Shown: positions 1,091-23,933 of the stretch, piece by piece | Numbering within the stretch: position 1 is the stretch's first letter | Layout of the letters: each line of letters begins with the position of its first letter | Source of the DNA: Tissierellia bacterium | GTDB taxonomy: Bacteria > Bacillota > Clostridia > Tissierellales > Sedimentibacteraceae | Reading direction: 5' to 3' | Assembly (NCBI GenBank): GCA_012518555.1 | Contig: JAAYRW010000047.1 | Span: 1 to 33,357 of the forward strand | DNA length: 33,357 bases | Notes under the pieces: generated by a model | What the model was told of the DNA's origin: nothing | The model's input: the letters and a program-made list of their open reading frames with translations, nothing else | The model's database searches: none | Translations under genes and position numbers: made by a program

Positions 1091-4000
1091 ATGATAAAAC
1101 GCAGAACTGAAACAATGGATGGAAATACAGCTGCAGCTTATGCTTCTTATGCATTTACAGACGTCGCGGCAATATATCCAATAACCCCTTCATCGCAAAT
1201 GGCAGGATTAGTTGATGAATGGTCAGCGAACGGAAAAAAGAACATTTTTGGAGAAACAGTATTAGTTAAAGAAATGCAGTCAGAAGGTGGTGCCGCAGGC
1301 ACCCTTCATGGAGCCTTGCAATCAGGTGCGTTGACAACTACTTATACAGCATCACAAGGACTTTTATTGAAAATTCCAAATATGTATAAAATTGCAGGTG
1401 AATTGTTACCGGCAGTATTTCATGTTAGTGCAAGATCCTTGGCATCAAACTCATTAAGTATATTTGGTGACCATCAAGATGTTATGTCAACAAGACAAAC
1501 GGGCTTTACATTATTAGCATCAAGTAGTGTTCAACAAGCTATGGATTTAGCTGCAGTTGCACATTTAAGCGCAATTAAATCAAGACTTCCTGTTCTTCAT
1601 TTCTTTGATGGATTTAGAACATCACATGAAATGCAGAAAATTGAAGTGTTAGAATATGATGAATTAGCAAAACTTGTAGATTATGATGCAATTAAAGCTT
1701 TTAGAGATAATGCCCTAAGTCCGAATAAACCTGTACTTAGAGGAACAACACAAAACCCGGACGTATTTTTCCAATTAAGAGAATCTATTAACAAATTCCA
1801 TGATGCAGTACCGGAAATAGTTCAATCATATATGGATGAAATTAATAAACTAACCGGTAGAAGCTACAAGCTTTTCAATTATTATGGAGACGAAAATGCT
1901 GAAAATATTATTATAGCTATGGGTTCAGGTTGCGAAACAATAAGTGAAGTAGTAGACTATTTAAATGAAAGAGGAGAAAAGGTAGGATTAATTGAAGTTC
2001 ATCTTTATAGGCCATTCTCTGCTGAATTTATGTTAAGTCAGATACCTAAAACGGTTAAGAAAATAGCAGTTCTTGACAGAACAAAAGAGCCTGGCTCCAA
2101 TGGCGAACCTTTATATCTTGATGTTAAAAATGCCTTTTACGGTGTTGAAAATGCCCCTGTTATAGTAGGAGGACGTTATGGATTAGCTTCTAAAGATTTC
2201 AAGCCGGACGATGTAGTAGCTGTATATGAAAACTTAAAGTTAGAAAATCCAAAAAATGATTTTACTGTAAGTATCGTTGACGACGTAACATATAAATCAT
2301 TACCTTTAAGCGATGTAAGTATAGACCCAACACCGGAAGGAACAATAGCATGTAAGTTTTGGGGATTTGGCTCTGATGGAACAGTTGGTGCGAACCAATC
2401 TGCAATAAAAGTAATAGGTGATAATACTAATTTTTATGCACAGGCATATTTTGAATATGATGCTAAGAAATCAGGAGGACTAACAATATCCCATTTAAGA
2501 TTTGGGAGAGAACCGATTAGAGAGCCTTATACAATTAACAGGGCTGACTTCATAGCTTGCCATAAGCAATCATATGTAAACAAATACAATCTTTTATCCG
2601 GAATAAAAAATGGCGGTAAATTTTTATTAAATTGTATTTGGGACGAAGAAGAATTAAATAAAGAGCTACCTGCTTCATTAAAAAGAGATATAGCAAATAA
2701 CAATATAGAATTTTACACTATTAATGCTGTGGAAATTGCTAGAGAAATAGGACTTGGCGAAAGAATTAATATGATAATGCAAGCTGCCTTCTTTAAACTT
2801 GCTGATATTATTCCTGTGGAAGAGGTTGCCAAATATTTGAAGGAAGAAGTTAAAAAGTCTTACGGTAATAAAGGGCAAAGTGTCGTTGATATGAACAATG
2901 CTGCAATTGATAAAGGTTTCGTAAGTATGAAAAAGATCAATGTACCGGAATCATGGAAAACAGCCACAGATGAAAAAGTTGAAGAGGATGTAAAAGCGCC
3001 TGAATTTTTAGAAAAAGTTGTATTCACAATGAATAGACAAGAAGGAGATAAACTACCTGTAAGTGCATTTAATGGTAGAGAAGATGGTACTTTTCCATTA
3101 GGAGGTACTGCTTGGGAAAAACGCGAGATAGCAATAGAAGTTCCACTTTGGGATTCATCAAAATGTATTCAGTGTAATCAATGTTCATTTGTGTGCCCTC
3201 ATGCAGTAATAAGACCGGTACTTCTTACTGAGGAAGAAGTAGAAGGTGCACCGGCCGGATTCGAATCTAAGCCTGCTACAGGAATTAAGGATATGCAGTA
3301 TCATTTAGCTGTATCGGCTCTTGACTGTACAGGATGCAGTAACTGTGTGGATGTGTGCCCAGCTAAGGAAAAAGCAATTAGTATGGAGCCATTGGCAATT
3401 AATAGGGAGCAATATATTAAAGATTGGGAATTTACAAAGAATATTGTATCTAAAGACCTACCTGTTAATCAGGCAAAAACAGTTAAAGGTAGTCAGTTTA
3501 GAAAACCATTATTAGAGTTCTCAGGGGCTTGTGCAGGATGTGGAGAAACACCATATGCGAAATTAGTTACTCAGATGTTTGGTGACAGAATGATGATTTC
3601 TAACGCAGCAGGATGCTCCACAGTATGGGGCGGCTCACCATCAGTATCATATACAACCAACGAAAAAGGACATGGACCATCCTGGGGATTCTCATTGTTT
3701 GAAGATAATGCAGAATATGGGTTTGGAATGTATTTGGGTGTTCATAAAATAAGAAATGCCACTAAATTAAAAGTTCTTGAGGCACTTAACAACGATATAA
3801 GTCTAAACTTAAAAGATGTTATGGAAGATTGGATTGATGGATTTGACGAATCAGATGGAACAAGAGATAGAGCAGAAAAGTTAGCAGCAGTTTTAGAGCA
3901 GGAAAAGGGCAATGATGATTTGTTGAATAAAATCTATGATAAGAAAGATTACTTCATGAAGAGATCTCACTGGATATTTGGTGGAGACGGATGGGCTTAC

Positions 4001-4609
4001 GATATTGGATATGGAGGATTAGATCATGTCCTTGCATCCGGTGAAAATATAAATGTCTTAGTTTTTGATACAGAAGTATATTCAAACACAGGAGGCCAGT
4101 CATCTAAAGCTACACCTACAGCCGCAATTGCAGAGTTTGCATCAAATGGTAAGAGAACCGGAAAGAAAGATTTAGGTTTAATGGCAATGAGCTACGGCTA
4201 TGTATATGTTGCACAGATTGCTATGGGAGCAGATAAGAATCAAACCTTAAAGGCAATAATGGAGGCTGAAAGTTATCCGGGTCCATCATTGATAATTGCA
4301 TATTCTCCATGTATCAATCATGGAATCAAAGGAGGATTGTCAAGGTCACAGCGACAGGCAAAAGATGCTGTTGAAGCAGGATATTGGACCTTGTACAGAT
4401 TTAATCCAGAATTAACAGACCAAGGCAAGAACCCATTCTCATTAGATTCTAAGGAACCAACAAAGGACTTTAAAGAATTCTTAATGAGTGAAGTTAGATA
4501 TGCTTCATTGTATGAGACATTCCCAGAGCAAGCAGATGAATTATTTGCAAAGGCTGAGGTGGATTCTAAACTTAGGTATGAGAAATATGTAAGAATGGCA
4601 ATGAAATAA
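1091..4609 (+). CDS. nifJ: pyruvate:ferredoxin (flavodoxin) oxidoreductase
   Basis: 1172 aa. N-terminal MDGNTAAAYASYAFTDVAAIYPITPSSQMA, two 4Fe-4S motifs (CIQCNQCSFVCP, CTGCSNCVDVCP), TPP region GDGWAYDIGYGGLDHVLASG and FDTEVYSNTGGQSSK. RBS gaggagaagtaaa. Confidence 0.97.
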   Translation: MIKRRTETMDGNTAAAYASYAFTDVAAIYPITPSSQMAGLVDEWSANGKKNIFGETVLVKEMQSEGGAAGTLHGALQSGALTTTYTASQGLLLKIPNMYKIAGELLPAVFHVSARSLASNSLSIFGDHQDVMSTRQTGFTLLASSSVQQAMDLAAVAHLSAIKSRLPVLHFFDGFRTSHEMQKIEVLEYDELAKLVDYDAIKAFRDNALSPNKPVLRGTTQNPDVFFQLRESINKFHDAVPEIVQSYMDEINKLTGRSYKLFNYYGDENAENIIIAMGSGCETISEVVDYLNERGEKVGLIEVHLYRPFSAEFMLSQIPKTVKKIAVLDRTKEPGSNGEPLYLDVKNAFYGVENAPVIVGGRYGLASKDFKPDDVVAVYENLKLENPKNDFTVSIVDDVTYKSLPLSDVSIDPTPEGTIACKFWGFGSDGTVGANQSAIKVIGDNTNFYAQAYFEYDAKKSGGLTISHLRFGREPIREPYTINRADFIACHKQSYVNKYNLLSGIKNGGKFLLNCIWDEEELNKELPASLKRDIANNNIEFYTINAVEIAREIGLGERINMIMQAAFFKLADIIPVEEVAKYLKEEVKKSYGNKGQSVVDMNNAAIDKGFVSMKKINVPESWKTATDEKVEEDVKAPEFLEKVVFTMNRQEGDKLPVSAFNGREDGTFPLGGTAWEKREIAIEVPLWDSSKCIQCNQCSFVCPHAVIRPVLLTEEEVEGAPAGFESKPATGIKDMQYHLAVSALDCTGCSNCVDVCPAKEKAISMEPLAINREQYIKDWEFTKNIVSKDLPVNQAKTVKGSQFRKPLLEFSGACAGCGETPYAKLVTQMFGDRMMISNAAGCSTVWGGSPSVSYTTNEKGHGPSWGFSLFEDNAEYGFGMYLGVHKIRNATKLKVLEALNNDISLNLKDVMEDWIDGFDESDGTRDRAEKLAAVLEQEKGNDDLLNKIYDKKDYFMKRSHWIFGGDGWAYDIGYGGLDHVLASGENINVLVFDTEVYSNTGGQSSKATPTAAIAEFASNGKRTGKKDLGLMAMSYGYVYVAQIAMGADKNQTLKAIMEAESYPGPSLIIAYSPCINHGIKGGLSRSQRQAKDAVEAGYWTLYRFNPELTDQGKNPFSLDSKEPTKDFKEFLMSEVRYASLYETFPEQADELFAKAEVDSKLRYEKYVRMAMK

Positions 4610-4704: not shown

Positions 4705-5424
4705 TTAAAACATTTTTTTAATATGACTAAGGTGTTTTCTCATCACAGCCTTTGCCATTTTCGGGTCATTATCCCTTAAAGCATCTATTATTGATAAGTG
4801 ATCTTCGATGGACTCAACGTAAAGCCCTTTTTTAAATGCATTGTAGACAAAGTTTTCATAGCTGACTCTTACAGCATCTAATGCAATACATAATAGTTCA
4901 TTACCAGATATCAATGCTAATTGAGAGTGAAATTCGAAGTCTTGAATAGTAAGTTTAGCTATATCACCATGGTTGTCTTTCATCATATTTACTATATTCT
5001 CTAACTTTTCAACATCTTCTTTCGTAGCATTTTTTGCAGCACTGTATGTGATTCCAACTTCTATAATTTCACGAAACTCCATAACATCTTTAGGGTTTGA
5101 GTATTTTGCCACCAAGTCAAAGTTCATTAGGTTTTTTACTTCTGTTTCTGTATTAACATATGTACCATTTTTAGTTCTGCTAATTAAATTTAATGTTTCA
5201 AGAGATGCATATGCTTCTCTTAAAGTGCTTCTGCCGATATCAAGCTCCTTGCAGAGTTGGTTTTCATTTGGAAAAACATAACCTTCTGGAAGTTCTCCGC
5301 TCAAAATAGCATTTCTTAACCTAATGAATAAATCTTCAGATAATCTTCTTTTGCTAAGAGGATTAATGTCTTTCAGTATATTGTATAGATTATTGTTTTC
5401 ATTTAAGATAAGTTCGTTCTGCAT
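4705..5424 (-). CDS. GntR-family transcriptional regulator, FadR/FCD subfamily
   Basis: N-terminal wHTH (LSEDLFIRLRNAILSGELPEGYVFPNENQLCKELDIGRSTLREAYASLETLNLI) and all-helical FCD-type domain (EFREIIEVGITYSAAKNAT...EDHLSIIDALRDNDPKMAKAVMRKHLSHI). Confidence 0.9.
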   Translation of the reverse strand: MQNELILNENNNLYNILKDINPLSKRRLSEDLFIRLRNAILSGELPEGYVFPNENQLCKELDIGRSTLREAYASLETLNLISRTKNGTYVNTETEVKNLMNFDLVAKYSNPKDVMEFREIIEVGITYSAAKNATKEDVEKLENIVNMMKDNHGDIAKLTIQDFEFHSQLALISGNELLCIALDAVRVSYENFVYNAFKKGLYVESIEDHLSIIDALRDNDPKMAKAVMRKHLSHIKKMF

Positions 5425-5524: not shown

Positions 5525-5535
5525 ATGTCTGACAT
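5525..5535. promoter_or_regulatory. putative GntR operator copy 1 (ATGTCTGACAT)
   Basis: 5-1-5 inverted repeat ATGTC-T-GACAT, exact reverse complement of the copy at 5705-5715, both in the divergent intergenic region of a FadR-type regulator. Confidence 0.6.
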
Positions 5536-5666: not shown

Positions 5667-5695
5667 TTGACTTTTTAATAAATTAGTTATATAAT
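5667..5695 (+). promoter_or_regulatory. sigma-A type promoter for the ilvD-led operon
   Basis: TTGACT (5667-5672), 17-bp spacer, TATAAT (5690-5695). The predicted start site falls at the edge of the operator at 5705. Confidence 0.75.
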
Positions 5696-5704: not shown

Positions 5705-5715
5705 ATGTCAGACAT
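5705..5715. promoter_or_regulatory. putative GntR operator copy 2 (ATGTCAGACAT)
   Basis: ATGTC-A-GACAT just downstream of the TATAAT -10, upstream of the RBS gaggaggtg. Confidence 0.65.
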
Positions 5716-5743: not shown

Positions 5744-7420
5744 ATGAGTTATGGAGGTAAGGGAAACTGGCAAGGTATGGATAATAGCTTTGCGCGTTCC
5801 CTTTTTAAATCTATGGGGTATTCCGACGATGACCTATTAAACAGACCAATTATAGGTATTGCAAACTCATGGAATACTATAGTTCCTGGACATTTTAATT
5901 TAAATCAAATAAGTGAATTTGTAAAAAAAGGTATTTATAGGGGCGGAGGTACAGCAGTAGAATTTGGAGTTATAGGTGCTTGTGATGGAATAGCTAATGG
6001 TCATGAAGGTATGAAATACATACTGCCTTCAAGGGAAATCATTTGCAATTCAATTGAAATTGGAGCACGGGCTCATAAATTAGATGCACTTGTGATGATT
6101 GGTTCTTGTGACAAAATAATTCCTGGCATGTTAATGGCTGCTGCAAGATTAAACATACCTTCAATTATTGTAAATGGAGGTCCAATGATAGGTGGAGTTG
6201 TATTTGATGGCAGAAAATCAGATGCAACATCTGTTGACGAGGCCTTGGGAATGGTAAAAGCAGGTTCGTTAAGCGAAGAATCATTAAAGTTGTTGGAAGA
6301 CACAAGTTGCCCAAGCTGTGGTTCCTGTGCTTTCCTTGGAACTGCTAATACGATGGGTTGTCTGTCAGAAGCACTTGGAATGAGTCTTACAGGCAGTGCC
6401 TTAATTCCTGCAACTTATGCTGAAAGATTAAGGGTTTCCTTTGAAGCAGGACTTAAAATATATGAGCTGGTAGAAAAGGATATTAAACCTCGTGATATTT
6501 TAACAAAAGAAGCTATTCTAAATGGTATTAAGACAGTAATGGCAATAAGCGGCTCCACCAATGCTATTCTTCATCTTAGTGCCATTGTATATGAAGCTGA
6601 ATTAGACATTGATGTCTTAAAGGAATTCAAGGAATTAAACAAAATTACTCCCCAAATAGCAAAAGTAAACCCAGCAGCTAAATGGGACATGGAGGATTTT
6701 TATAGGGCTGGTGGAATTCCAAGAGTAATGGATAACTTAGGTGATTTACTAGGTAGATCAGTTATTACATGCACTGGTAAGACATTGGGAGAAAACTTAG
6801 CTGAATATAAATATCTTCATCCTGCTAATGATGATATTATTAAAACCGTTGACGAATCTTTTGAAGAAACAGGAGGGATTGCTGTCTTATACGGTAATTT
6901 AGCACCGAATTCTGCAGTTACAAAGCCTGGTGCATTTGATAAGTCCCTTTATCATTTCAGGGGTAAAGCAAAGGTTTTCAATAGTGAAGAAGAGGCAAAT
7001 GAAGCTATTTTAGCAGGAAGGATTGAGCATGGTGATGTAGTTGTTATAAGGTACGAAGGTCCAAAGGGTGGGCCAGGTATGAGAGAAATGTATAAGGCTA
7101 TGAAGTTCCTGTATGGAATGGGATTAAATAAAACAACGGCTCTAATTACTGATGGTAGATTTTCTGGTACAAACAATGGATGTTTTGTGGGACATATTTC
7201 ACCGGAAGCTGCAGAAGGAGGCCCCATTGCAGCTATTCAAGATGGCGACATTATAGATATTAATATTGAAAAGGGAACAATAAATGTTATGCTAAGCGAT
7301 GAAGAAATAAAAAACAGACTTGAGAATGTCGTTAAACCTACTAAAGAAGTACCTAGGGGTTATTTACAGGTATACTCGAAGTTAGCTTCATCAGCTGACA
7401 AAGGTGCAGTTATATTATAA
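5744..7420 (+). CDS. IlvD/Edd-family dehydratase (dihydroxy-acid or sugar-acid dehydratase)
   Basis: GACDGIANGHEGMKYILPSRE, IGSCDKIIPGMLMAAARLNIP, CPSCGSCAFLGTANTMGCLSEALGMSLTGSA, TDGRFSGTNNGCFVGHISPEAAEGGPI. Start placed at the ATG after gaggaggtgtaaa rather than 5705, which lies in the operator. Confidence 0.92.
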   Translation: MSYGGKGNWQGMDNSFARSLFKSMGYSDDDLLNRPIIGIANSWNTIVPGHFNLNQISEFVKKGIYRGGGTAVEFGVIGACDGIANGHEGMKYILPSREIICNSIEIGARAHKLDALVMIGSCDKIIPGMLMAAARLNIPSIIVNGGPMIGGVVFDGRKSDATSVDEALGMVKAGSLSEESLKLLEDTSCPSCGSCAFLGTANTMGCLSEALGMSLTGSALIPATYAERLRVSFEAGLKIYELVEKDIKPRDILTKEAILNGIKTVMAISGSTNAILHLSAIVYEAELDIDVLKEFKELNKITPQIAKVNPAAKWDMEDFYRAGGIPRVMDNLGDLLGRSVITCTGKTLGENLAEYKYLHPANDDIIKTVDESFEETGGIAVLYGNLAPNSAVTKPGAFDKSLYHFRGKAKVFNSEEEANEAILAGRIEHGDVVVIRYEGPKGGPGMREMYKAMKFLYGMGLNKTTALITDGRFSGTNNGCFVGHISPEAAEGGPIAAIQDGDIIDINIEKGTINVMLSDEEIKNRLENVVKPTKEVPRGYLQVYSKLASSADKGAVIL

Positions 7421-7432
7421 TTGGGAGGAAAA

Positions 7433-8374
7433 ATGGATATTAAAACTAATATTAAAAAAATAGTAATTGCCGGAGCAGGAGTTATGGGAGCATCATTTGC
7501 TCAAATATTTGCTCAATATGGTTTTAATGTTTTATTGTATGATATATTCGAAGAATCAATAGCAAAAGGAAAAAAACTAATAAGCATGAATCAACAAAAC
7601 GCTATTGAAGAAGGCATGATTTCACATGATGAATCTCAAAAGCTTTTATCAAATATATCATTTACTATGGATATAGAATCTTTCAGAGATGCAGACTTTG
7701 TAATTGAAGCAATTGCGGAAAAAATAGAAATAAAACATGAGTTTTGGAAACAAGTATCTGAAATTGCACCAGAAGAGGCAATACTGACAACTAATACATC
7801 TGGACTTTCAATAAACAAGATAGCAGAAGCAGTACATAAACAAGAAAGATTTTGCGGTATGCATTGGGTTAATCCACCACATATTGTTCCCTTAGTAGAA
7901 ATAATCTCAGGAGATAAAACAACGGAAGAAACATTGGAAATCGTAAAAGAACTTGCTTTATATATAGAAAGAAACCCTGTAATGGTAAAAAAGGACATTG
8001 ACGGATTTATTTTAAATAGATTGCAATATGCACTATTAAGAGAAGCTTTCTATATTGTTGAAAATGGTGTTGCAAGTGTCGAGGATGTAGACGATGTTAT
8101 GAAATATGGTCTTGGAAGAAGATATGCATGTATAGGTCCTTTTGAAACGATTGATTTTGGAGGAATTGACATATTCTTTAATGTTGGAAGTTATATGTTT
8201 AGAGAACTCAGCAATTCTACAGAAGTATCCAAATTACTAAAAGATTTATATGAAGATGGGGCATATGGTGTAAAAACTGGAAAAGGTTTTTATGATTATA
8301 GTGGTGACAAGGCAAAGAAAGCTATAGAAAAAAGAGACAAAGATTTTATGAAGGTTGCCAAAAGCCTATCATAA
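7433..8374 (+). CDS. 3-hydroxyacyl-CoA dehydrogenase-family NAD-dependent dehydrogenase (possibly a free 3-hydroxyacid dehydrogenase)
   Basis: Rossmann GAGVMGASFAQIFAQYGFNVLLYD, NTSGLSINKIAEAV, MHWVNPPHIVPLVEIISG, GVKTGKGFYDY. RBS gggaggaaaa before ATG 7433. Confidence 0.88.
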   Translation: MDIKTNIKKIVIAGAGVMGASFAQIFAQYGFNVLLYDIFEESIAKGKKLISMNQQNAIEEGMISHDESQKLLSNISFTMDIESFRDADFVIEAIAEKIEIKHEFWKQVSEIAPEEAILTTNTSGLSINKIAEAVHKQERFCGMHWVNPPHIVPLVEIISGDKTTEETLEIVKELALYIERNPVMVKKDIDGFILNRLQYALLREAFYIVENGVASVEDVDDVMKYGLGRRYACIGPFETIDFGGIDIFFNVGSYMFRELSNSTEVSKLLKDLYEDGAYGVKTGKGFYDYSGDKAKKAIEKRDKDFMKVAKSLS

Positions 8375-8403
8375 TAAAAATAAGGGATAAATAAGGAGGA
8401 AAA

Positions 8404-9471
8404 ATGGAAAGAGAAATCATTAAAAGCGATGGTAGAGGAATTATCGCAGGAGATTATGTTAATCAGAATCACGACAACGACAGAGACCAATGGCTAAGAG
8501 ATAGCTTTCCTGAGTGGGGAACTCTACTCAATCAAGAAATTGAGAATAGGGTAGTACCTAAGGGAGAAGTTAGCCTTTGGTGGTGTGGAGGACCTTCTTG
8601 GGTTTTAAAAACCGATGAAGGAGGAATTTTCTTCATAGACATGTACTGTGGACCATCGATGTATACTTCACATTATTATTGTGGAGTTTGCAAACAATCA
8701 GGTGCTGACAGTATAAATTGGATAAGGCTTAACCCACATGTTATTGATCCTTGGAAATTTAACCAATTAGATGGTGTTTTCTGTACCCATGCTCATCAAG
8801 ATCACTGTGACCTTTATGCTGTAAAAGCTGCTTTGAAAACTACGGATGCAATGTTTTATGCACCGCCTGTAGCAGCAGACAAGTTGAGAAAATTTGAAGT
8901 GCCAGAAGAAAGATTAGTTGTTGCAAAAGTAGGGGAATCTGTTAAAGTAAAAGGGGCAGAAGTAGAATTTTTGATCTGCTATGACCAAACAGCTATAAAA
9001 ACAGGAGAAGGTGATGTAAATCTTTCCTTTGAAGAAGCTGCTTGCTGTTTCTTATTCAAAACATCTGGAGGAAATATACTATTTATGGGAGATACCTGGT
9101 ATCATGATGGATATGTTGCATTCAAACATAACTATGATATAGATGTGGCTATATTCGATATGGGAAGCAATGCACCAGGTGCTACAGATAAAATGACTCC
9201 TTATGATTGTGCAAGAGTTGGACAGACTATAGGAGCTAAACTATTAATTCCCGATCATTATGACAACTGGGCAAATACAGCATGTGATCCAGAATTGTTA
9301 GTTAATCAATTTGTAAGAATAATTGAAGAAAATACGCCTGAAATAAAAACCATGATAATGCGTTGTGGCGGAAGATTTGATTATCCAAGAGACCAAGATA
9401 AAAAGAGATATAGGTATCCGGACGGAAGCGAAAACTATGATTTCTCTAAATCAGCTTTTGCAAAAAAATAA
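8404..9471 (+). CDS. MBL-fold hydrolase, UlaG (L-ascorbate-6-phosphate lactonase)-like
   Basis: WLRDSFPEWGTLLNQEIE, FCTHAHQDHCD metal motif, LDPW-type VIDPWKFNQLD, FMGDTWYHDGYVAFKHNYDIDVAIFDMGSNAPGATDKMTPYD, LIPDHYDNWAN, GGRFDYPRDQDKKRYRYPDG parallel recalled E. coli UlaG along its length. Confidence 0.88.
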   Translation: MEREIIKSDGRGIIAGDYVNQNHDNDRDQWLRDSFPEWGTLLNQEIENRVVPKGEVSLWWCGGPSWVLKTDEGGIFFIDMYCGPSMYTSHYYCGVCKQSGADSINWIRLNPHVIDPWKFNQLDGVFCTHAHQDHCDLYAVKAALKTTDAMFYAPPVAADKLRKFEVPEERLVVAKVGESVKVKGAEVEFLICYDQTAIKTGEGDVNLSFEEAACCFLFKTSGGNILFMGDTWYHDGYVAFKHNYDIDVAIFDMGSNAPGATDKMTPYDCARVGQTIGAKLLIPDHYDNWANTACDPELLVNQFVRIIEENTPEIKTMIMRCGGRFDYPRDQDKKRYRYPDGSENYDFSKSAFAKK

Positions 9472-9490
9472 TATAATTGGAGGTCAAGTT

Positions 9491-10357
9491 ATGCGAAGTT
9501 ACTTTTACGAATCACCAGACTCGTTTGGAAAGTTATTTGAAATTTTAGAAGACAACTCAATCGAGATGAAATTTTTAGCGGGAGGATCAGACTTTGTACC
9601 TAGATTATCCCTAGAAAGGGAAAAAATTCATAAGGAAAATCAAAAGGACTCAATGATAATAAACTTGTCTGATTTAGGATTGAATTATATAGTGGAAAAC
9701 GATACCGAAGTTATCATTGGTGCAACAACAACTTTTGCAGAAATAGAAAAAAATGATATCATTAAAGGAGAGTTTCCTGCTTTAATTAAAGCTATAAATG
9801 AAATTGCTGGTTTTTCTGTTAGAAATATTGCAACTATAGGCGGTAATATTATGAATGCATCACCGGCTGCCGATTCGGTTCCTGTTCTTATGGTTTTAGA
9901 AGCGGAATTTGTATTAAGAGGACCAGATGGGTCAAGAAATATTGAAGCAAAAGAGTTCTTCACAGGACCCGGTAAAACTGTAGCTAAAGAAAATGAAGTT
10001 TTAACACATATAATAATTAGAAAAAATAAAGGCAAATCAGCTTTCAATAAACTTGGCAGAAGAAAGGCAGAAACTCTTTCGGTAGTTAATGCAGCTGCTT
10101 ATGTAGAAAAGGAAAATAATATATGCAAGGCTGTAAGAGTTGCCATTGGCTCAGTAGCTCCCACAGTGCTTAGATGTGAGGAAGTAGAAGAATTATTGCT
10201 AGGTAAGGAGCTTACTGAGGAAAATATTAGAGTAGCCAGTGAAAAAGTGGTGGATGCAATTAGTCCTATTGACGATATAAGAGCATCAGCTTGGTATAGA
10301 AAAAAGGTTGCCCCTGTAATTGTAAGAAGGGCAATTGAAGCAGCTATTGTTGATTAA
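9491..10357 (+). CDS. molybdenum hydroxylase FAD-binding subunit (CoxM/NdhF-like)
   Basis: LAGGSDFVPRLSLE, GATTTFAEIEKNDII, SVRNIATIGGNIMNASPAADSVPVLMVLEA. Start at ATG after ggaggtcaagtt (9491); the ORF-track start at 9365 overlaps the upstream gene. Confidence 0.93.
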   Translation: MRSYFYESPDSFGKLFEILEDNSIEMKFLAGGSDFVPRLSLEREKIHKENQKDSMIINLSDLGLNYIVENDTEVIIGATTTFAEIEKNDIIKGEFPALIKAINEIAGFSVRNIATIGGNIMNASPAADSVPVLMVLEAEFVLRGPDGSRNIEAKEFFTGPGKTVAKENEVLTHIIIRKNKGKSAFNKLGRRKAETLSVVNAAAYVEKENNICKAVRVAIGSVAPTVLRCEEVEELLLGKELTEENIRVASEKVVDAISPIDDIRASAWYRKKVAPVIVRRAIEAAIVD

Positions 10358-10368
10358 GGAGGGAAAAT

Positions 10369-10869
10369 ATGTCTGAAATATTAAGCTTTTACTTAAATGG
10401 TAATCCTGTAGAGGTATTGGTTAAACCAGAACAGACCCTACTTGAGTTGTTAAGAGACGAGTTAGGTTTAACCAGCCCTAAGTGTGGATGTAATCATGGG
10501 GATTGCGGTGCTTGCACTGTTATACTTGATGGAAAGGCTGTTAAATCTTGTTTAGTACTAGCTCCTACAGTTAAAGGAAAAAAGGTTGTAACTGCTGATG
10601 GACTTTGTTCAGGAGAAAAATTGCATCCAATTCAGCAAGCCTTCTTAGATTATGGAGCACCTCAGTGCGGTTATTGTACTCCCGGCATGGTGATGGCGGC
10701 AACAGCTTTTCTTTTGGAAAATCCCAAACCTACAAAGGAAGAGATTAAGGAAGCTTTAAGCGGCAACTTATGCAGATGTGCAGGATATGAAAAATATACT
10801 GAAGCAGTATTGGCTGTTTCAAAAGGTGAATTTGGATTATTGCCGGAAGGAAGTGATTTTAATGTTTAA
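10369..10869 (+). CDS. molybdenum hydroxylase 2x[2Fe-2S] subunit (CoxS/NdhS-like)
   Basis: LGLTSPKCGCNHGDCGACTVILDGKAVKSCL and QCGYCTPGMVMAATAFL...LSGNLCRCAGYEKY. Confidence 0.97.
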   Translation: MSEILSFYLNGNPVEVLVKPEQTLLELLRDELGLTSPKCGCNHGDCGACTVILDGKAVKSCLVLAPTVKGKKVVTADGLCSGEKLHPIQQAFLDYGAPQCGYCTPGMVMAATAFLLENPKPTKEEIKEALSGNLCRCAGYEKYTEAVLAVSKGEFGLLPEGSDFNV

Positions 10870-12151
10870 AAGTGTAGGAAAAAGAGTTAAAAAATATGAT
10901 GGAGAAGGTTTAGTTACCGGAAGAATGACATATGTAAGTGATCTTACTATGCCAAATATGTTGATTTGTAAAACTCTTAGAAGTCCATATCACAGAGCCA
11001 AGCTAAACAAGGTAGATGTAAGTGAAGCATTAAAGGTTCCCGGCGTATATGCTATTATAACCAAAGATGATGTACCCCATAACTACTTTTCAATGGTACC
11101 AGACCACCATGTTTTAGCAGAAGAGCTGATTAGGTATAAAGGACAAAATATAGCGGCTGTAGCTGCTATAAGCAAGGAAGTTGCACTAGAAGCAATATCA
11201 AAAATCAAACTTGACATTGAAGAACTACCTTTTGTTATAGATCCTGTTGAAGCATGTAAACCAGGTGCTCCAAAAGTAAGACCTGAAGGCAATCTTCACT
11301 TGTTTGATGGTACAAGTGAAGTTAGAAAAATAAGAAAGGGCGATGTAGAGAAGGGATTTGCAGAAGCTGATTATATAGTTGAGGGAACATATACAACTCC
11401 AAGTCAGGAACATGCTCCTTTGGAAACAAGTGCTTCTTTAGCTTACCTTGATGAAGCAGGCAAGCTGGTTATTCATTCTAAAACCCAAGGTTTGTATTTT
11501 ACACAGGGAGACCTTGCCAATGTATACCAACTACCTTTAAATAAGTTAAAATTTGTGGGCGGAACAATCGGTGGTGGTTTCGGTGGTATGAATAGTATCC
11601 ATACTGACCATCTAGCAGGACTTTTAACTTTAAAAACAGGACGACCAGTAAAGTTTCATTTAACTAGGGAAGAAGAAATGCTATATTCTACTATTAGAAG
11701 TCCATGGATTTTTAAATTTAAAGATGGTATAAAGAAGGACGGTACTATAACTGCAAGAAAAGTTGACATCCTACATGACTGTGGAGCATATACCGAATTA
11801 GGATTATATGCAGTTGAAAAAAATGCCAATATGATTGCAGGGGCAGTAAAAGTAGAAAACTTAGAAGTTAATTCAAGAATGGTTTATACTAATAAAATGC
11901 CTAGTGGTTCAATGAGAGGATTTGGAGTAAATGTAGGGCAATTTGCAGATCAAGTACAGGTTGATAAACTTGCACACGCTGTCGGAATGAAACCTATAGA
12001 GGTAAGATTGAAAAACTCTTTCAAAGAAAACGACGAAAACCATGTTGGAAACCCATTAGTTGCAGTTTCTTCTATTGAAACACTAAAGATGGTTGCTGAA
12101 ATGGCAGGGGAAGAATTAGCTCCTGAATATGCAAATATGAGTTCTAAGTAA
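10862..12151 (+). CDS. molybdenum hydroxylase molybdopterin subunit, N-terminal half (NdhL-like large subunit)
   Basis: GRMTYVSDLTMPNMLICKTLRSPYHRAKL, GGTIGGGFGGMNS, MPSGSMRGFGVNVGQFADQVQVDKLA. ATG at 10862 overlaps the coxS-like stop by 8 bp; ends TAA at 12149-12151. Confidence 0.92.
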   Translation: MFKSVGKRVKKYDGEGLVTGRMTYVSDLTMPNMLICKTLRSPYHRAKLNKVDVSEALKVPGVYAIITKDDVPHNYFSMVPDHHVLAEELIRYKGQNIAAVAAISKEVALEAISKIKLDIEELPFVIDPVEACKPGAPKVRPEGNLHLFDGTSEVRKIRKGDVEKGFAEADYIVEGTYTTPSQEHAPLETSASLAYLDEAGKLVIHSKTQGLYFTQGDLANVYQLPLNKLKFVGGTIGGGFGGMNSIHTDHLAGLLTLKTGRPVKFHLTREEEMLYSTIRSPWIFKFKDGIKKDGTITARKVDILHDCGAYTELGLYAVEKNANMIAGAVKVENLEVNSRMVYTNKMPSGSMRGFGVNVGQFADQVQVDKLAHAVGMKPIEVRLKNSFKENDENHVGNPLVAVSSIETLKMVAEMAGEELAPEYANMSSK

Positions 12152-12165
12152 GGATGGTGAAATAG

Positions 12166-13170
12166 ATGATCAAAAAAGGAAGAGGAGTAGCAAATGTTTA
12201 TTATCCAACCGGATTTAATGGTGGCGGAGATCCTGATTTAGTTTCCCTACGTATTAAAGCTGATGGTACCATTGACATGACAAATGCAAGTTGTGAAATG
12301 GGTCAGGGATTTAAAACTGTTGCAATACAAATGGCAGCTGAAGCTCTAGGAGTAAGTGAAGAATTATTTACATTAGATAATTCAAATACAGATACAGCAG
12401 CATTCAGTATGGATACTGCAGGCAGTAGGTCTACCTATATTGTTGGTTTAGCTGCAATAGCTGCTGCAAATGACTTAATAGTAAAAGTAAAAGAATTTGT
12501 TGCAGAATTAAATAATTGTAGTCCTGATGAAATAGTTTATGAAAATGGCAGAGTTTACAAAAAAGATGATGAAAGTGTAGCTATGACATTGCAAGAAATT
12601 GGAACGGCATCAACCTTCGGAGGAGTATTCTTGATGGGTACAGGCGGTTTTTTACCACCGGTAGGCCCGCCAAGAGATCCAGAAACAGGTTTTACTGTTC
12701 CAAGCAGGTCATATGCATGGGGCTCAACAATAATAGACGTTGAAGTAGATACAGAAACCGGAGTAGTAACAGTAGAAAATGTGTACAATTGCTATGATAT
12801 CGGAACTGTAATCAATCCACTTCAAGCAGAAGGTCAAGTTGATGGTGGAAATATCCAAGGAATAAGTATGGCACTGTATGAAGATTTATCCCCTTATTTT
12901 CCAGAGAGCATAGAAACATATGCATCAAACTTCACAGATTATATTATTCCTACATTTATGGACATGCCTAAACATAGTGAAATAAAGTTTTATGAAAACT
13001 ATGATCCTTATGGACCCTTCGGGGCAAAAGGTTGTGGAGAGATGGTTACAAATACACAGTCTCCAGCAATAGCAAACGCCATCTATGATGCAATAGGCGT
13101 ATATATTGATTCTCTTCCCATCACTCCTGAAAAAGTTCTAAGGGCTTTGGAAGAAAAGAATAAGCAATAA
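12166..13170 (+). CDS. molybdenum hydroxylase molybdopterin subunit, C-terminal half (NdhM-like medium subunit)
   Basis: RGVANVYYPTGFNGGGDPD, CEMGQGFKTVAIQMAAEALGV, DTAGSRSTYIVG, PYGPFGAKGCGEMVTNTQSPAIANAIYDAIGV (catalytic-Glu region). Own RBS-like aaggatggtg. Confidence 0.92.
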   Translation: MIKKGRGVANVYYPTGFNGGGDPDLVSLRIKADGTIDMTNASCEMGQGFKTVAIQMAAEALGVSEELFTLDNSNTDTAAFSMDTAGSRSTYIVGLAAIAAANDLIVKVKEFVAELNNCSPDEIVYENGRVYKKDDESVAMTLQEIGTASTFGGVFLMGTGGFLPPVGPPRDPETGFTVPSRSYAWGSTIIDVEVDTETGVVTVENVYNCYDIGTVINPLQAEGQVDGGNIQGISMALYEDLSPYFPESIETYASNFTDYIIPTFMDMPKHSEIKFYENYDPYGPFGAKGCGEMVTNTQSPAIANAIYDAIGVYIDSLPITPEKVLRALEEKNKQ

Positions 13171-13178
13171 ATAATATT

Positions 13179-13202
13179 CGGACAGGTAAGATTACCTGTC
13201 CG
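13179..13202 (+). terminator. GC-richer hairpin after the molybdenum hydroxylase subunits
   Basis: CGGACAGGTAA-ga-TTACCTGTCCG inverted repeat. No good T-tract follows, so attenuator or processing site is also possible. Confidence 0.4.
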
Positions 13203-13288
13203 ACTACCTAGTATATAGCGACAAACTTGCTATAGTGTTTTGCAAGATTTCATGCTATAATTATTGTAATAAAAGAGCGGAGATAAAT

Positions 13289-14137
13289 ATGCAGAAAATT
13301 GTTATATTTGGCGCAGGACAAAGCGGAAGAATGATTAGAAGCTTGCTTCATGGAAGATTTGAACTTATTTGCTTTGCAGATAATAATTATAGAAATCTTC
13401 CTAGTTGTGTGGATGATACTCCAGTGATATCTCCGAAGGAATTACTAGATATTAGGCCGGACATGGTTATTGTCTCGGTTCTAAATAAAGAATCTGCAGA
13501 GGAAATTTGTAGACAGCTTTCAGAGCAGGGTATAGGTAAATCAAAAATACTTAATATCAATAATTTGAGAGAATTGTTTGATATAAGGCTCTCCACCTTG
13601 AGGTTACAAGCAGAGGAAATTAAGAACAAAAAAATTGAAGGAAACATTGCTGAATTAGGAGTATATAAGGGATATTTAGCAAGGGAATTGAATATCTTGT
13701 TTAAGGAGCGCAAACTATATCTCTTCGATACCTTCGAAGGATTTGACAAGAGAGACCTAGAGTATGAAGGAACTCTAGGAAGCAGAAGGAGAAGCAATAA
13801 TAATTTCAGTGACACAAATGTAGACCAGGTAAAGAGTATCTTGCCTTATCCTGAAAAGGTAGTCTTTTGCAAGGGTTACTTTCCCGAAACTGCAGTAAAT
13901 ATTGAGGATAGCTTTGCATTAGTAAGTCTTGATGCAGATTTATATCTTCCTACTCTGAATGGTTTAAGGTACTTTTATCCAAGACTTAGCAATGGTGGAC
14001 GCATACTGCTTCACGACTATAACAGTAGCCAGTTTCCTTTCGTAAAAAAAGCTGTTGAAGATTTTTCCGTCGAAGCTAACACAGCTATTAGAATAATCCC
14101 CCTATGCGATTTGCATGGCAGCGCAGTTATTATGTAA
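13289..14137 (+). CDS. TylF/MycF-like methyltransferase with N-terminal Rossmann-like (PglD/nucleotide-binding-like) domain
   Basis: N-term MQKIVIFGAGQSGRMIRSLL; C-term GNIAELGVYKGYLARELNILFKERKLYLFDTFEGFDKRD and FALVSLDADLYLPTLNGLRYFYPRLSNGGRILLHDYN, typical of TylF-family enzymes. Confidence 0.8.
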   Translation: MQKIVIFGAGQSGRMIRSLLHGRFELICFADNNYRNLPSCVDDTPVISPKELLDIRPDMVIVSVLNKESAEEICRQLSEQGIGKSKILNINNLRELFDIRLSTLRLQAEEIKNKKIEGNIAELGVYKGYLARELNILFKERKLYLFDTFEGFDKRDLEYEGTLGSRRRSNNNFSDTNVDQVKSILPYPEKVVFCKGYFPETAVNIEDSFALVSLDADLYLPTLNGLRYFYPRLSNGGRILLHDYNSSQFPFVKKAVEDFSVEANTAIRIIPLCDLHGSAVIM

Positions 14138-14153
14138 TATTTAGGAGGAAAAA

Positions 14154-15176
14154 ATGGAATTTTTCAGAGTTTTAAAGGAGCTTGACTTAAATAAAGAAAA
14201 CATAGTTCTTACTGTACTTTCAGGAAATAACATCGGAGATAAGCTCATAGTGTCAGATGGGGCAAAGGTTTACACCAACAATGATTCATATGATTGGAAT
14301 AGCTTGCTTGAATTAATACCTTTTGATAAGAAAAGCAGGCTAGTAAGTTATAAGAAGGAAAAAGTATATATTGAGTTTATAAGCCAGAATTATAGTGTAG
14401 TTGTTTGTGGGGCTGGTCATATTTCAATGCCCATAATAAAAATGTGCCAGCTTTTAAACTTGCCTGTTACTGTAATAGATGACCGAATCAAATTTCTTAA
14501 CAATGCAATAAGTGCAGGGGCAGATAAGGCCATATGCGAGTCTTTTGAAAAAGCTCTCAGCAATATTAAGGGAAGCAAGTCAACTTTTTTTATAATAGTT
14601 ACTAGAGGACACAGGTATGACCAGGTTTGCCTTGAAAATATAATAAATAAAGAAAATGCCTATATAGGAATGATAGGAAGCAAGGTTAGAGTTAAAAAGG
14701 TGCTGGATTATTTAGAGGACAAGGGTATATCAAGGGAGAAATTAGATAAGGTATATACTCCAATTGGCCTAAATATCGGGGCTGAAACACCAGCTGAAAT
14801 TGCAGTTGCTATTATGGCTGAAATAATTGAGGTTAAAAACAAGGCAAAAGGTTTTGGTGTATATTCTGTTGAATTGTTTGATGCAATATTAGAAAATAAA
14901 TACGGGGAAATACCTAGAGCTTTGGTTACCATAGTTTCAAGAAGAGGGTCTGCTCCAAGAGAAGTTGGAACTAAGATGTTGGTATTAAAAGATGGAACAA
15001 TGGTAGGAACAATTGGCGGAGGCTGTGTAGAAGCAGACATTATGCAAGAAGCCCTTTTAGCTATGGATAATCAAGTATGTAAACTTATCCAAGTTGATAT
15101 GACAGGACAAGAGGCGGAAGATGAAGGAATGGTTTGTGGTGGAGTTGTTGAAGTATTTATTGAGCCAATTAACTAA
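14154..15176 (+). CDS. XdhC/CoxI-family molybdenum hydroxylase maturation factor
   Basis: VVVCGAGHISMPIIKMCQLLNLPVTVIDDR and IGMIGSKVRVKKVLDYLEDKG...PIGLNIGAETPAEIAVAIMAEI (XdhC Rossmann), then RGSAPREVGTKMLVLKDGTMVGTIGGGCVEADI (CoxI domain). Confidence 0.92.
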   Translation: MEFFRVLKELDLNKENIVLTVLSGNNIGDKLIVSDGAKVYTNNDSYDWNSLLELIPFDKKSRLVSYKKEKVYIEFISQNYSVVVCGAGHISMPIIKMCQLLNLPVTVIDDRIKFLNNAISAGADKAICESFEKALSNIKGSKSTFFIIVTRGHRYDQVCLENIINKENAYIGMIGSKVRVKKVLDYLEDKGISREKLDKVYTPIGLNIGAETPAEIAVAIMAEIIEVKNKAKGFGVYSVELFDAILENKYGEIPRALVTIVSRRGSAPREVGTKMLVLKDGTMVGTIGGGCVEADIMQEALLAMDNQVCKLIQVDMTGQEAEDEGMVCGGVVEVFIEPIN

Positions 15177-15193
15177 TGTAGCGGAGGAGTAAG

Positions 15194-16279
15194 ATGACAG
15201 TAGGTGCAGTTATTGTTGCAGCTGGCCTGTCTTCAAGAATGAAAGACTTTAAGCCACTGATGAAAATCGGCGATAGGACAATGATTGAAATGACAATTAA
15301 TAATTACCAAGCCCTTAAGGTCGATGAAATTGTTGTAGTAACAGGATATCGTGCAAATGATATTAAAGATGTGCTTAGTGGCAAAAATATTAGCTTTATT
15401 CATAATGAGGATTATGAAAAAACCCATATGTTTGACTCCATATGCCTGGGGCTAAAAGAGATGGAAAGATCAGTTGATTTAGTATTCATTACTCCTTCAG
15501 ACAGCCCTTTTGTTCAGCAGTTTACATTAAAAAAGATGCTAGATCTACTAATAAAGAAAGGTTATAACTTGCTACAACCATCCTATTATGGTAAGAATGG
15601 TCATCCCCTTTTAGTAAGATCCGACTATATCAGTATGCTAATTAAGCACGATGGGACAAATGGAATGCAAGGCCTAATAGCAAAAATGGGTAAAGATTTT
15701 ATTAATGTACCCTTTGTTGACCCGGGTATAATTTTAGATGCAGACACAAAAAAAGATTATGAAAGGCTATTAGACTACAATGAAGAAAGAAGATGTCCAT
15801 CACTTGACCTATGTAGAAAAATTCAAGACTATTTCGAAGTTTCCGATTCAGTTAAAGTACATTCTGATAAAGTGGCTGAAGTTGCCCTAAATATTTATCA
15901 AATATTGACTAATAAAGGAATAAAACTAGATAAAAAACTTATTTTAGCAGCAAGCCTCCTCCATGATATTGCTAAAGGGAAGGCCCATCATGGGGAAGTT
16001 GGAGCAGATTGGCTTTTGGATATGGGCTTTATAGAAGTATCAGAAATTGTAAGAGAACATATGGAGCTTAAGAACTTCCCTAGCACTATAACAGAAAAAG
16101 AAGTAGTATATTTAGCCGATAAGCTAGTTATTGAAGATAAATTATCTGCAATTGAGGATAGATTCTCATATAAGGAAGAATTATATAAAAATAATGAAGG
16201 GGCACTTAGCTCAGTAAAAAGAAGAAAGAAAGAGGCTTTATTTTTACATGAGATAGTATTTGGAAGAGAAAACTATTAA
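15194..16279 (+). CDS. MobA/MocA-like molybdenum cofactor nucleotidyltransferase fused to C-terminal HD domain
   Basis: VGAVIVAAGLSSRMKDFKPLMKIGDRTMIE, FITPSDSPFV, GKNGHPLLVRSDY, then VHSDKVAEVALNIYQILTNKG...LAASLLHDIAKGKAHHGEVGADWL (HD signature). Confidence 0.88.
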   Translation: MTVGAVIVAAGLSSRMKDFKPLMKIGDRTMIEMTINNYQALKVDEIVVVTGYRANDIKDVLSGKNISFIHNEDYEKTHMFDSICLGLKEMERSVDLVFITPSDSPFVQQFTLKKMLDLLIKKGYNLLQPSYYGKNGHPLLVRSDYISMLIKHDGTNGMQGLIAKMGKDFINVPFVDPGIILDADTKKDYERLLDYNEERRCPSLDLCRKIQDYFEVSDSVKVHSDKVAEVALNIYQILTNKGIKLDKKLILAASLLHDIAKGKAHHGEVGADWLLDMGFIEVSEIVREHMELKNFPSTITEKEVVYLADKLVIEDKLSAIEDRFSYKEELYKNNEGALSSVKRRKKEALFLHEIVFGRENY

Positions 16280-16337
16280 TTTCATGATTGTAAAAATATA
16301 TTTTTATTGTTAAAATATATAGAAAGGATAATACTAC

Positions 16338-17273
16338 ATGTCGAAAAAACCTAAGAAGATTATCGTAACAGCAGCAGTTACAGGAGGAATTCACACTCCC
16401 TCAATGACTCCATATTTGCCATGTGGTGTAGAGGATATATCTAAAGCTGCAATAGAGGCAGCACAAGCAGGAGCATCAATCGTACATATTCATGCAAGGG
16501 AGGATAATGGAAAACCAACTTCCGACTTGAATGTGATTGGAAAAATTTTAACAAGGATTAAAGAAAACTCTGATGTCATTATTGGTATAACTACAGGTGG
16601 AGCATTAGGTATGACATTAGAGGAGCGTTTAGCGGTAATTCCTGCTTTTAAACCTGAGATAGCATCTTTTAATAGTGGTTCAATTAATTTTAATATATCT
16701 GAAATGGCAAAAAATATTAAAGAGCCAAAATACGATTGGGAGGTACCATTTTTAACAAATACAAAGAGAAATGTATTTAGTAATACATTTGAAGAAATGG
16801 AAGAATGTATTAAAATTATGAACGATGCAGGGACTGTGCCAGAGTTTGAAATTTTCGATTTAGGACAAATTTATAACATAAAGTATCTCTTTAATAAAGG
16901 ACTAATAAGGAAACCCTTATATTTTCAGTTTGTGCCTTCAGTTTTAGGTGGTTTTCTTCTTAATCCTGATAATGTATTATATTTTATTAACCAACTAAAA
17001 AAGACATTTGGTGAAGATGTGAATTATTCTATGGTATCAGCTGGAAGACGCATCTTCCGTTATGAAGTACTTTCTGCAATTTTAGGTGGTAATGTTAGAG
17101 TGGGATTAGAGGATAGTTTATATATTAATATGAATGGCAAATTGGCAACCAGCAATTCACAGCAAGTAGAAAAAATTATCAATATATTAAAAATGCTTGA
17201 TTATGAAATTGCAACACCAGATGAAGCGAGAGAAATCCTTAATACTAAAGGAAAAAACAATGTGAATTTTTAA
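16338..17273 (+). CDS. BKACE (beta-keto acid cleavage enzyme, DUF849) family protein
   Basis: KIIVTAAVTGGIHTPSMTPYLPCGVEDISKAAIEAAQAGASIVHIHARE, FNSGSINF, EFEIFDLGQIYN, AGRRIFRYEVLSAILGGNVRVGLEDSLYI. Confidence 0.93.
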   Translation: MSKKPKKIIVTAAVTGGIHTPSMTPYLPCGVEDISKAAIEAAQAGASIVHIHAREDNGKPTSDLNVIGKILTRIKENSDVIIGITTGGALGMTLEERLAVIPAFKPEIASFNSGSINFNISEMAKNIKEPKYDWEVPFLTNTKRNVFSNTFEEMEECIKIMNDAGTVPEFEIFDLGQIYNIKYLFNKGLIRKPLYFQFVPSVLGGFLLNPDNVLYFINQLKKTFGEDVNYSMVSAGRRIFRYEVLSAILGGNVRVGLEDSLYINMNGKLATSNSQQVEKIINILKMLDYEIATPDEAREILNTKGKNNVNF

Positions 17274-17314: not shown

Positions 17315-17659
17315 TTAAAAGAACTCTTTAAAATAATTATCAAATATTTTAGAGGCTTTTGTTGTTAGTTCTTCTTCAAATTCATCATATCTATTTAAGA
17401 AATTGATACATTTTGGAGTTAAACTGGAACCGCCTCCGCCTAAACCGCCAATTTTTCGGTCCAATAGTTTAAATCCAAGGTTTTTCTCAGTCCCTTTAAC
17501 CATTTTTAAAGCTTTTGTATAAGATAAATTCATTATTTTACAGGCTTCATTTAACGATCTATATTCGTGAGTTAATTTCAGTAAAACTCTAACACCAGGA
17601 CCGAAAAAGACAGTATCTTTTGCCAAGCGAATTTGTAAGATATAACGTAGTTCTTTCAT
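17315..17659 (-). CDS. ModE N-terminal-like winged-helix regulator (DNA-binding domain only)
   Basis: VLLKLTHEYRSLNEACKIMNLSYTKALKMVKGTEKNLGFKLLDRKIGGLGGGGSSLTPKCINFLNRYDEFE. Start placed at 17659 (RBS gggaggatactt); 114 aa with no molbindin domain. Confidence 0.85.
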   Translation of the reverse strand: MKELRYILQIRLAKDTVFFGPGVRVLLKLTHEYRSLNEACKIMNLSYTKALKMVKGTEKNLGFKLLDRKIGGLGGGGSSLTPKCINFLNRYDEFEEELTTKASKIFDNYFKEFF

Positions 17660-17759
17660 AAGTATCCTCCCAACTATATTATGATGGTTATATTTTATCA
17701 AAAATTATAAAGAAATGGTAGTTAAAAAATGCTTACATCCCAATATTATTTTTTAACAC

Positions 17760-18664: not shown

Positions 18665-18674
18665 GGAGGAAGTA

Positions 18675-19211: not shown

Positions 19212-19212
19212 T

Positions 19213-21741: not shown

Positions 21742-21895
21742 AATATTCTCCCTTCCTCTATATATAATATGAAAAATGAAGATTAGGGTTACATTAAAGG
21801 GGCAATTTCATTACAAGATTGAAAAGCAACTTATAATATGTTATAATTTACCCAAGGGAAATCATTTTCATATCATGGATTTGGGAGATGAAAAA

Positions 21896-23848: not shown

Positions 23849-23860
23849 TAAGTGGTTTGT

Positions 23861-23901: not shown

Positions 23902-23933
23902 CTTGTAATTTTCGTCTCAAAAGGATACCAATT

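Follow-up and report, generated by a model that had tools for sequence, protein, structure and literature searches.

Closest described pathways and conservation of the operon

The aerobic deoxyribose pathway of Pseudomonas simiae, in which a molybdenum (Mo) dehydrogenase, a lactonase, a 3-dehydrogenase, and a beta-keto acid cleavage enzyme (BKACE) lead to glyceryl-CoA and acetoacetate, with glycerate as product (PMC6365646), is one of the closest described counterparts of the eleven-gene operon analyzed here. This operon lies on a 33,357 bp stretch of DNA (hereafter, the window), which is contig C148 of a Tissierellia-like metagenome-assembled genome (MAG; 2.09 Mb, 88% complete). The functional order of the P. 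simiae pathway is the same as that of the model proposed below up to glycerate, and a BKACE-family cleavage enzyme is common to both, but the enzymes are partly non-homologous. The Mo enzyme of P. simiae is an IorAB-like two-subunit protein with cytochrome c, whereas that of the window is a four-subunit, FAD-containing enzyme of the XDH/NDH type; the 3-dehydrogenase is an SDR in P. simiae and has a 3HCDH fold here (hereafter, HCDH); and, unlike in P. simiae, the candidate lactone opener is a UlaG-like hydrolase. Glycerate is used through a glycerate kinase in P. simiae, whereas an IlvD-family dehydratase and pyruvate:ferredoxin oxidoreductase (PFOR) are proposed for this purpose here; no glycerate kinase is encoded in the cluster, although the rest of the genome was not searched for one. 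Finally, the P. simiae pathway is aerobic, whereas the window cluster occurs in anaerobes.

Three other described systems share parts of the operon. The phloroglucinol pathway of Clostridium scatologenes (PMC10470551) also combines a 3HCDH-fold free-acid dehydrogenase with a subsequent BKACE-family lyase, and both it and the window cluster are found in anaerobic gut and soil hosts. However, its ring opener is a cyclase-family dihydrophloroglucinol cyclohydrolase, in contrast to the metallo-beta-lactamase (MBL)/UlaG-like protein of the window, which has, in addition, a Mo hydroxylase, IlvD, and PFOR, and a BKACE with Ile instead of Trp. The nicotinate dehydrogenase of Eubacterium barkeri (3hrd) is likewise a four-subunit enzyme with a split molybdenum cofactor (MoCo) subunit, but is distant by sequence; none of the other enzymes of that route (6-hydroxynicotinate reductase, enamidase, B12 mutase, and later enzymes) is present among the annotated genes of the window, the genome not having been searched. 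UlaG, the L-ascorbate-6-phosphate lactonase, shares the fold and the HxHxDH motif with the window hydrolase (about 33–34% identity to UlaG-annotated proteins), which, however, falls below the cut-off of the ascorbate-6-phosphate lactonase model (NF008688: 225.5 bits, cut-off 306) and represents a separate, very conserved family; unlike the UlaG system, the window lacks ula PTS, decarboxylase, and epimerase genes. Among open-access papers, we found no description of this gene set and no operon matching it one-to-one, in agreement with the original prediction of a candidate undescribed pathway. What is new about it is the way in which enzymes of known types are combined.

The operon (5744–17273, + strand) encodes, in order, IlvD, HCDH, the UlaG-like hydrolase, the FAD, FeS, MoCo-large, and MoCo-medium subunits of the Mo hydroxylase, a TylF-like protein, XdhC, a MocA-HD protein, and BKACE (Table 1). 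All eleven co-directional genes and the divergent GntR gene of the original prediction are present, and its family labels hold, with some refinements (a non-CoA-type dehydrogenase, a split MoCo subunit, and a TylF-like gene not named there). Intergenic gaps range from −8 to 58 bp, with the sole exception of a 118 bp gap (13170–13289) between the MoCo-medium and TylF-like genes, and an AGGAGG-like ribosome site precedes nearly every gene. The 118 bp gap contains a perfect 11-bp inverted repeat (13178–13203), a possible site of mRNA processing or attenuation.

Homologous clusters were found in some 15 further genomes that represent several phyla (Clostridia, Synergistaceae, Deltaproteobacteria, and Planctomycetes), a recurrence of the gene set that is far above chance, and the order IlvD-HCDH-UlaG-Mo, which was among the checks called for, is kept in most of them. 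A search with the UlaG-like protein returned 30 loci, 29 of them at 64–95% identity and one (L050) at 41%, from Tissierellia, Clostridia, Lachnospiraceae, Oscillospiraceae-type bacteria, Synergistaceae, one deltaproteobacterium, and Planctomycetes. When the window proteins were mapped, IlvD, HCDH, and UlaG were co-located in about 13 further loci and Mo subunits occurred in about 12; where the neighborhood is split, genes missing locally are often present elsewhere in the same genome. The distribution is patchy: clusters occur in 5 of 83 genomes in the family of genome G030 (all already known) and in 1 of 401 in the family of G034, namely the central genome itself, so that this wider sampling added no clusters. 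This patchiness, together with identities of 80–95% across phyla, suggests that the cluster spread by horizontal transfer, travelling as a unit. The operon is real, conserved, widely shared among gut-type anaerobes, and apparently undescribed. The UlaG-like protein is by far its most conserved member (mean pairwise identity among seven genomes: UlaG 83%; Mo large subunit 72%; IlvD and HCDH 59% each). An MBL protein adjoining a BKACE in Peribacillus (L157) turned out not to be UlaG-like.

Enzyme-level evidence

The closest structural relatives of the dehydrogenase are a pyridine-carboxylate dehydrogenase (best PDB match) and 3-hydroxybutyryl-CoA dehydrogenase. Compared to the latter, the residues that hold CoA (Lys56 and Asn221) are absent from every cluster-type dehydrogenase, with Met56 and Gly221 in the window protein and Gly at position 221 in all cluster-type copies, whereas the catalytic residues Ser117, His138, Glu150, and Asn188 are retained. 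By comparison, the canonical CoA-type dehydrogenase that adjoins the L034 cluster retains Asn221. The same loss of Lys56 and Asn221 has been described for the free-acid enzyme CsTfD (PMC10470551). Therefore, the cluster dehydrogenase is predicted to oxidize a free 3-hydroxy acid to a beta-keto acid, i.e., the substrate of BKACE. This residue test strengthens the predicted logic of oxidation, ring opening, formation of a beta-keto acid, and its cleavage with acetyl-CoA. In genome G033, a HIBADH-like gene (by sequence reading) takes the place of the dehydrogenase beside IlvD and BKACE.

The window BKACE matches PF05853 over residues 7–302 (302.6 bits, gathering cut-off 24.8) and falls into a group of 310-residue proteins that includes 3e02, 3lot, and 8rio. 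Its best family is NF053538 (3,5-dioxohexanoate BKACE), although the score of 379 bits is under the cut-off of 430. At the position of Glu14 of the lysine-type enzymes and Trp of the triacetate enzyme (CsTAL), it carries Ile (in TGGIHTP), whereas other BKACEs of the same genome carry Glu or Trp; by this mark, it is neither lysine-type nor triacetate-type. Two of these other BKACEs (loci L003 and L004; G000:C176 and C26) have the Trp that marks the triacetate (phloroglucinol) enzyme, and the host may have a separate phloroglucinol-type route.

PFOR, which the original prediction had placed next door as a handler of products, belongs with the operon: it is a dedicated extra copy in the genus, and unrelated genomes also have a PFOR gene within or next to the cluster. 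The loci with this linkage are the window, L023, L025, L029, L030, L031, and L032. In the sister MAG of the window genome (Tissierellia G007, locus L021), a PFOR of 84–90% identity lies upstream of the cluster, preceded by an IlvD fragment, and other PFORs are located elsewhere in both genomes. In the PFOR tree, the window, Synergistaceae, and L029 clusters contribute sequences to separate branches, i.e., at least three PFOR lineages, and the ITPSS and HVSAR motifs typical of ordinary PFORs are present in all of them. That ordinary PFORs were recruited repeatedly suggests pyruvate as the end point of the pathway, with IlvD catalyzing the pyruvate-producing step. IlvD scores as a dihydroxyacid dehydratase (DHAD)-like enzyme, adjoins or lies near PFOR in some clusters, and has a paralog (49%) in the host genome. 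An IlvD-family enzyme that turns glycerate into pyruvate is known, an archaeal DHAD, and this reaction would join the PFOR and IlvD observations. BKACE and PFOR seemed by eye to be mutually exclusive alternatives, an idea that was dropped (Fisher p = 0.30).

AbfD, the other proposed partner, is not supported as such because it is not cluster-bound: its orthologs lie elsewhere in the sister species and in nearly all other genomes. The only exception is G039 (L034, L094, and L095), where a large locus combines Mo hydroxylase, UlaG-like, VorABG, AbfD, Hbd, thiolase, and crotonase genes with LarA-like, tungsten-AOR-like, and second IlvD genes (the latter three by sequence reading). This locus represents a distinct, though related, pathway.

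The MoCo subunit is encoded by two proteins in different frames (10862–13170), and the conservation of this split in other clusters shows that it is genuine and not a frameshift. Nicotinate dehydrogenase is the closest structure of both halves (3hrd_A and 3hrd_B), and the Mo active-site motif is nearer to E. coli XdhA than to PaoC, which does not settle the substrate. The TylF-like protein accompanies the split Mo subunits in eight loci (the window, L021, L022, L023, L024, L025, L033, and L049), and in L033 its gene lies amid MocA, XdhC, MoaA, and ModA genes; it is a candidate new accessory or maturation factor of Mo hydroxylases.

A proposed pathway and its alternatives

We tentatively favor an anaerobic, non-phosphorylating oxidative route that degrades a ring-form compound resembling a sugar. 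A 2-deoxyaldose (e.g., 2-deoxy-D-ribose), or the corresponding lactone or acid, would be the most likely substrate; 2-deoxyribose fits best because of the analogy with the known aerobic pathway. In the first step, the Mo hydroxylase with its four subunits would oxidize a cyclic hemiacetal to a lactone; XdhC, MocA, and possibly the TylF-like protein would serve in the maturation of this enzyme. The UlaG-like hydrolase would open the lactone to a free 3-hydroxy acid. HCDH would then oxidize C3 to form a beta-keto acid, from which BKACE and acetyl-CoA would produce acetoacetate and an acyl-CoA (glyceryl-CoA in the case of deoxyribonate). After CoA transfer, IlvD would convert glycerate to pyruvate, and the adjacent PFOR would yield acetyl-CoA and reduced ferredoxin. 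The sequences themselves show to which families the enzymes belong, that the genes (including that of PFOR) are linked, and that the dehydrogenase has lost its CoA contacts; we infer what the substrate is, that a lactone and glycerate are intermediates, and in which order the reactions take place.

The gene context of relatives is of a sugar type. A SDR of the gluconate/glucose dehydrogenase kind replaces the Mo enzyme in L048, and a Gfo/Idh-like gene (by sequence reading) does so in L103; this exchangeability for sugar-type dehydrogenases fits the oxidation of a cyclic hemiacetal to a lactone. In the Lachnospiraceae loci L036–L047, the UlaG-like gene (65–68%) is found with GntR and CUT2 sugar-binding protein or ABC genes, the other cluster genes being absent. 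L031 has TRAP transporter, VOC protein, DhaK, DhaL, and RpiB genes around UlaG, HCDH, and IlvD (DhaK assigned by family model; TRAP, VOC, DhaL, and RpiB by sequence reading), and TRAP transporters also occur among the genes of cluster relatives. An Alicyclobacillus plasmid carries sugar isomerase, HCDH, MBL hydrolase, RpiB, DhaK, DhaL, and TpiA genes together. No ligand could be assigned to the TRAP and sugar-binding proteins by comparison with PDB structures. In L040 and L048, the UlaG-BKACE-IlvD core is accompanied by a gene for a PCC/DUF296-domain protein.

Several points weigh against the deoxyaldose route. None of the genes is specific for deoxyribose, the action of IlvD on glycerate is one that we infer, and the Mo enzyme differs from the IorAB-type enzyme of the Pseudomonas route, having nicotinate dehydrogenase as its closest structure and an XdhA-like, not PaoC-like, motif. 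L040 carries a beta-glucoside PTS and GH1, which the deoxyaldose model leaves unexplained, as well as a xylose-isomerase-like gene. In addition, most other clusters, and also their genomes (at ≥53% identity), lack BKACE, so that the cleavage step must differ there; a CoA-transferase-like gene (by sequence reading) and a thiolase (which clusters with that of L034) adjoin L026 and possibly substitute for BKACE.

An unlikely alternative is polyphenol-type ring opening, similar to the anaerobic breakdown of phloroglucinol. Here, the Mo enzyme would first hydroxylate or reduce the ring, the UlaG-like protein would act as a retro-Claisen cyclohydrolase that breaks a C-C bond of a reduced, hydroxylated 1,3-diketone, the dehydrogenase would be of the triacetate-forming type, and BKACE would cleave a dioxo acid. 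The absence of Lys56 and Asn221 from the dehydrogenase, as in CsTfD, with BKACE as the next enzyme, would fit this alternative, as would the NF053538 match of BKACE, the gut or insect anaerobes as hosts, and an OYE-like reductase (by sequence reading) near the second cluster of G045 (L097). However, the known ring opener belongs to the 'cyclase' family rather than to MBL/UlaG; no phloroglucinol reductase (SDR) is among the annotated genes of the window (the genome was not searched for one); BKACE has Ile where CsTAL has Trp, yet two other BKACEs of the genome have Trp; IlvD, a vicinal-diol dehydratase, is left without a role; and the neighbors in relatives are of the sugar type. If the substrate were such a ring, the short list of known anaerobic ring-opening pathways would be extended. 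Every enzyme would be employed in sequence by a pentose route, in which an aldopentose would be converted to a lactone (Mo enzyme), pentonate (UlaG-like), 2-keto-3-deoxypentonate (IlvD), 3,4-dihydroxybutyryl-CoA (PFOR), free 3,4-dihydroxybutyrate, and 4-hydroxyacetoacetate (HCDH), the last being cleaved to glycolyl-CoA and acetoacetate (BKACE). IlvD-family enzymes do dehydrate aldonates, the operons of L029 and L030 include PFOR, located between HCDH and UlaG, and L034 pairs IlvD with a VorABG-type 2-oxoacid oxidoreductase. Nevertheless, we regard this route as improbable: the cluster PFORs are canonical in their N-terminal motifs, IlvD is DHAD-like by score and not a sugar-acid dehydratase, and the required thioesterase step is not encoded.

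The original prediction had listed N-heterocycles among the candidate substrates, in which case the route would begin like nicotinate fermentation, with hydroxylation of a pyridine-like ring by the Mo hydroxylase, and continue with the opening and cleavage of this ring by the remaining enzymes. Both MoCo subunits best match nicotinate dehydrogenase and have its split, the best PDB match of the dehydrogenase is a pyridine-carboxylate enzyme, and a related split Mo enzyme in Salinigranum adjoins a cyclase-family hydrolase. This reading is not favored and appears quite improbable, given that relatives have SDR or Gfo/Idh-like genes in place of the Mo enzyme and carry genes for sugar transport and kinases; moreover, the eleven genes include no annotated nitrogen-releasing or ring-reducing enzyme, and the same core lacks an adjacent Mo hydroxylase in L040, L048, L097, and L103. 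Such clusters (L040, L048, and L097), the occurrence of UlaG and Mo genes without adjacent IlvD or HCDH in L049, and the internal 118 bp gap with its stem-loop would also suit a loose neighborhood, i.e., a Mo-hydroxylase module and a separate UlaG-IlvD-HCDH-BKACE module under one regulator that act on different compounds. This is the least probable explanation because the genome of L049 has IlvD (61%) and HCDH (51%) elsewhere and the gene order is the same in most clusters. Carnitine or betaine was rejected as substrate, as the lactonase, IlvD, and Mo enzyme would be left without a role.

A more far-reaching form of the deoxyaldose route is possible but doubtful. In this form, an undescribed anaerobic pathway would have spread horizontally, with a Mo hydroxylase and a new, very conserved UlaG-like family supplying a free 3-hydroxyacid dehydrogenase and BKACE. 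A dedicated IlvD paralog would act as a glycerate dehydratase into pyruvate and PFOR, deoxyribose-like sugars from the DNA of dead cells would undergo a ferredoxin-yielding fermentation, and the TylF-like protein would be a new maturation factor of the Mo hydroxylase. The operon would enlarge the catabolism known from gut, rumen, and insect anaerobes by one route, open the substrate of the highly conserved UlaG-like family to testing, and show how Mo hydroxylase and BKACE chemistry operates in ferredoxin-linked fermentation. If the substrate is deoxyribose, this would be a route for DNA carbon that bypasses the kinase/aldolase pathway.

Regulatory sites and neighboring genes

The 'one strong promoter' of the original prediction can be retained as a candidate: the sequence upstream of IlvD is the best promoter-like match of the region, but the total number of matches is at chance level (55 observed vs. 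56 ± 9 expected by chance). The gap between GntR and IlvD holds two copies of ATGTCWGACAT, the core of which (TGTCWGACA) is also found upstream of the operons in L021, L033, L035, L040, and L048. This recurrence suggests that these operons probably share one regulator type.

Table 1 Coordinates of the operon, PFOR, and regulatory features in the window
Feature	Position	Strand	Evidence
Pyruvate:ferredoxin oxidoreductase, dedicated, adjoining the cluster	1091..4609	+	TIGR02176 1894 bits; ortholog upstream in sister G007; canonical N-terminal motifs
GntR/FadR-type regulator (FCD domain), divergent	4705..5424	-	Pfam GntR + FCD; homolog in 11 of the loci retrieved
GntR operator-like palindrome ATGTCTGACAT, copy 1	5525..5535	.	
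Candidate promoter TTGACT-17-TATAAT	5667..5695	+	11/12 positions, top of 55 promoter-like matches
GntR operator-like palindrome ATGTCAGACAT, copy 2, directly downstream of the -10	5705..5715	.	
IlvD/Edd-family dehydratase, 558 aa; proposed D-glycerate (2,3-dihydroxy acid) dehydratase to 2-oxo acid	5744..7420	+	
3HCDH-family dehydrogenase, non-CoA kind; proposed 3-hydroxyacid to beta-keto acid	7433..8374	+	CoA-contact residues absent
UlaG-like metallo-beta-lactamase-fold hydrolase; proposed lactonase / ring-opening hydrolase	8404..9471	+	HxHxDH metal motif
Molybdenum hydroxylase FAD subunit	9491..10357	+	
Molybdenum hydroxylase [2Fe-2S] subunit	10369..10869	+	
Molybdenum hydroxylase MoCo large subunit, NdhL-like half	10862..12151	+	best PDB match 3hrd_A
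Molybdenum hydroxylase MoCo medium subunit, NdhM-like half	12166..13170	+	best PDB match 3hrd_B; catalytic Glu region conserved
TylF-like methyltransferase-fold protein, NeuD/PglD-like N-terminus; candidate Mo-hydroxylase accessory factor	13289..14137	+	
XdhC-family Mo-hydroxylase maturation factor	14154..15176	+	
MocA-like NTP transferase + HD domain (DVU_1551 family)	15194..16279	+	NF045665 372 vs. cut-off 315
BKACE, beta-keto acid cleavage enzyme	16338..17273	+	Pfam BKACE (PF05853); PDB relatives 3e02, 3lot, 8rio

Downstream of the operon, a small gene (17315–17701, − strand), ModE/LysR-HTH-like by reading of its relatives, is shared with L021, L022, and L094, where it lies beside Mo genes. 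It is followed by methyltransferase, ECF S-component-like, and NTPase_1 genes (17861–19806), which were also noted for L021; a similar triad with ECF transporter genes adjoins XdhC and MocA in a Tepidanaerobacteraceae genome (L094), and the triad may be part of the Mo module. Three genes on the − strand (19914–20435, 20636–21370, and 21424–21741) have no Pfam matches. Beyond them lies an acetoin dehydrogenase-type operon with a sigma-54 activator (AcoR, E1 alpha and beta, AcoX-like, E2, and E3), followed by a CoA-disulfide-reductase-like gene (21776–29928).

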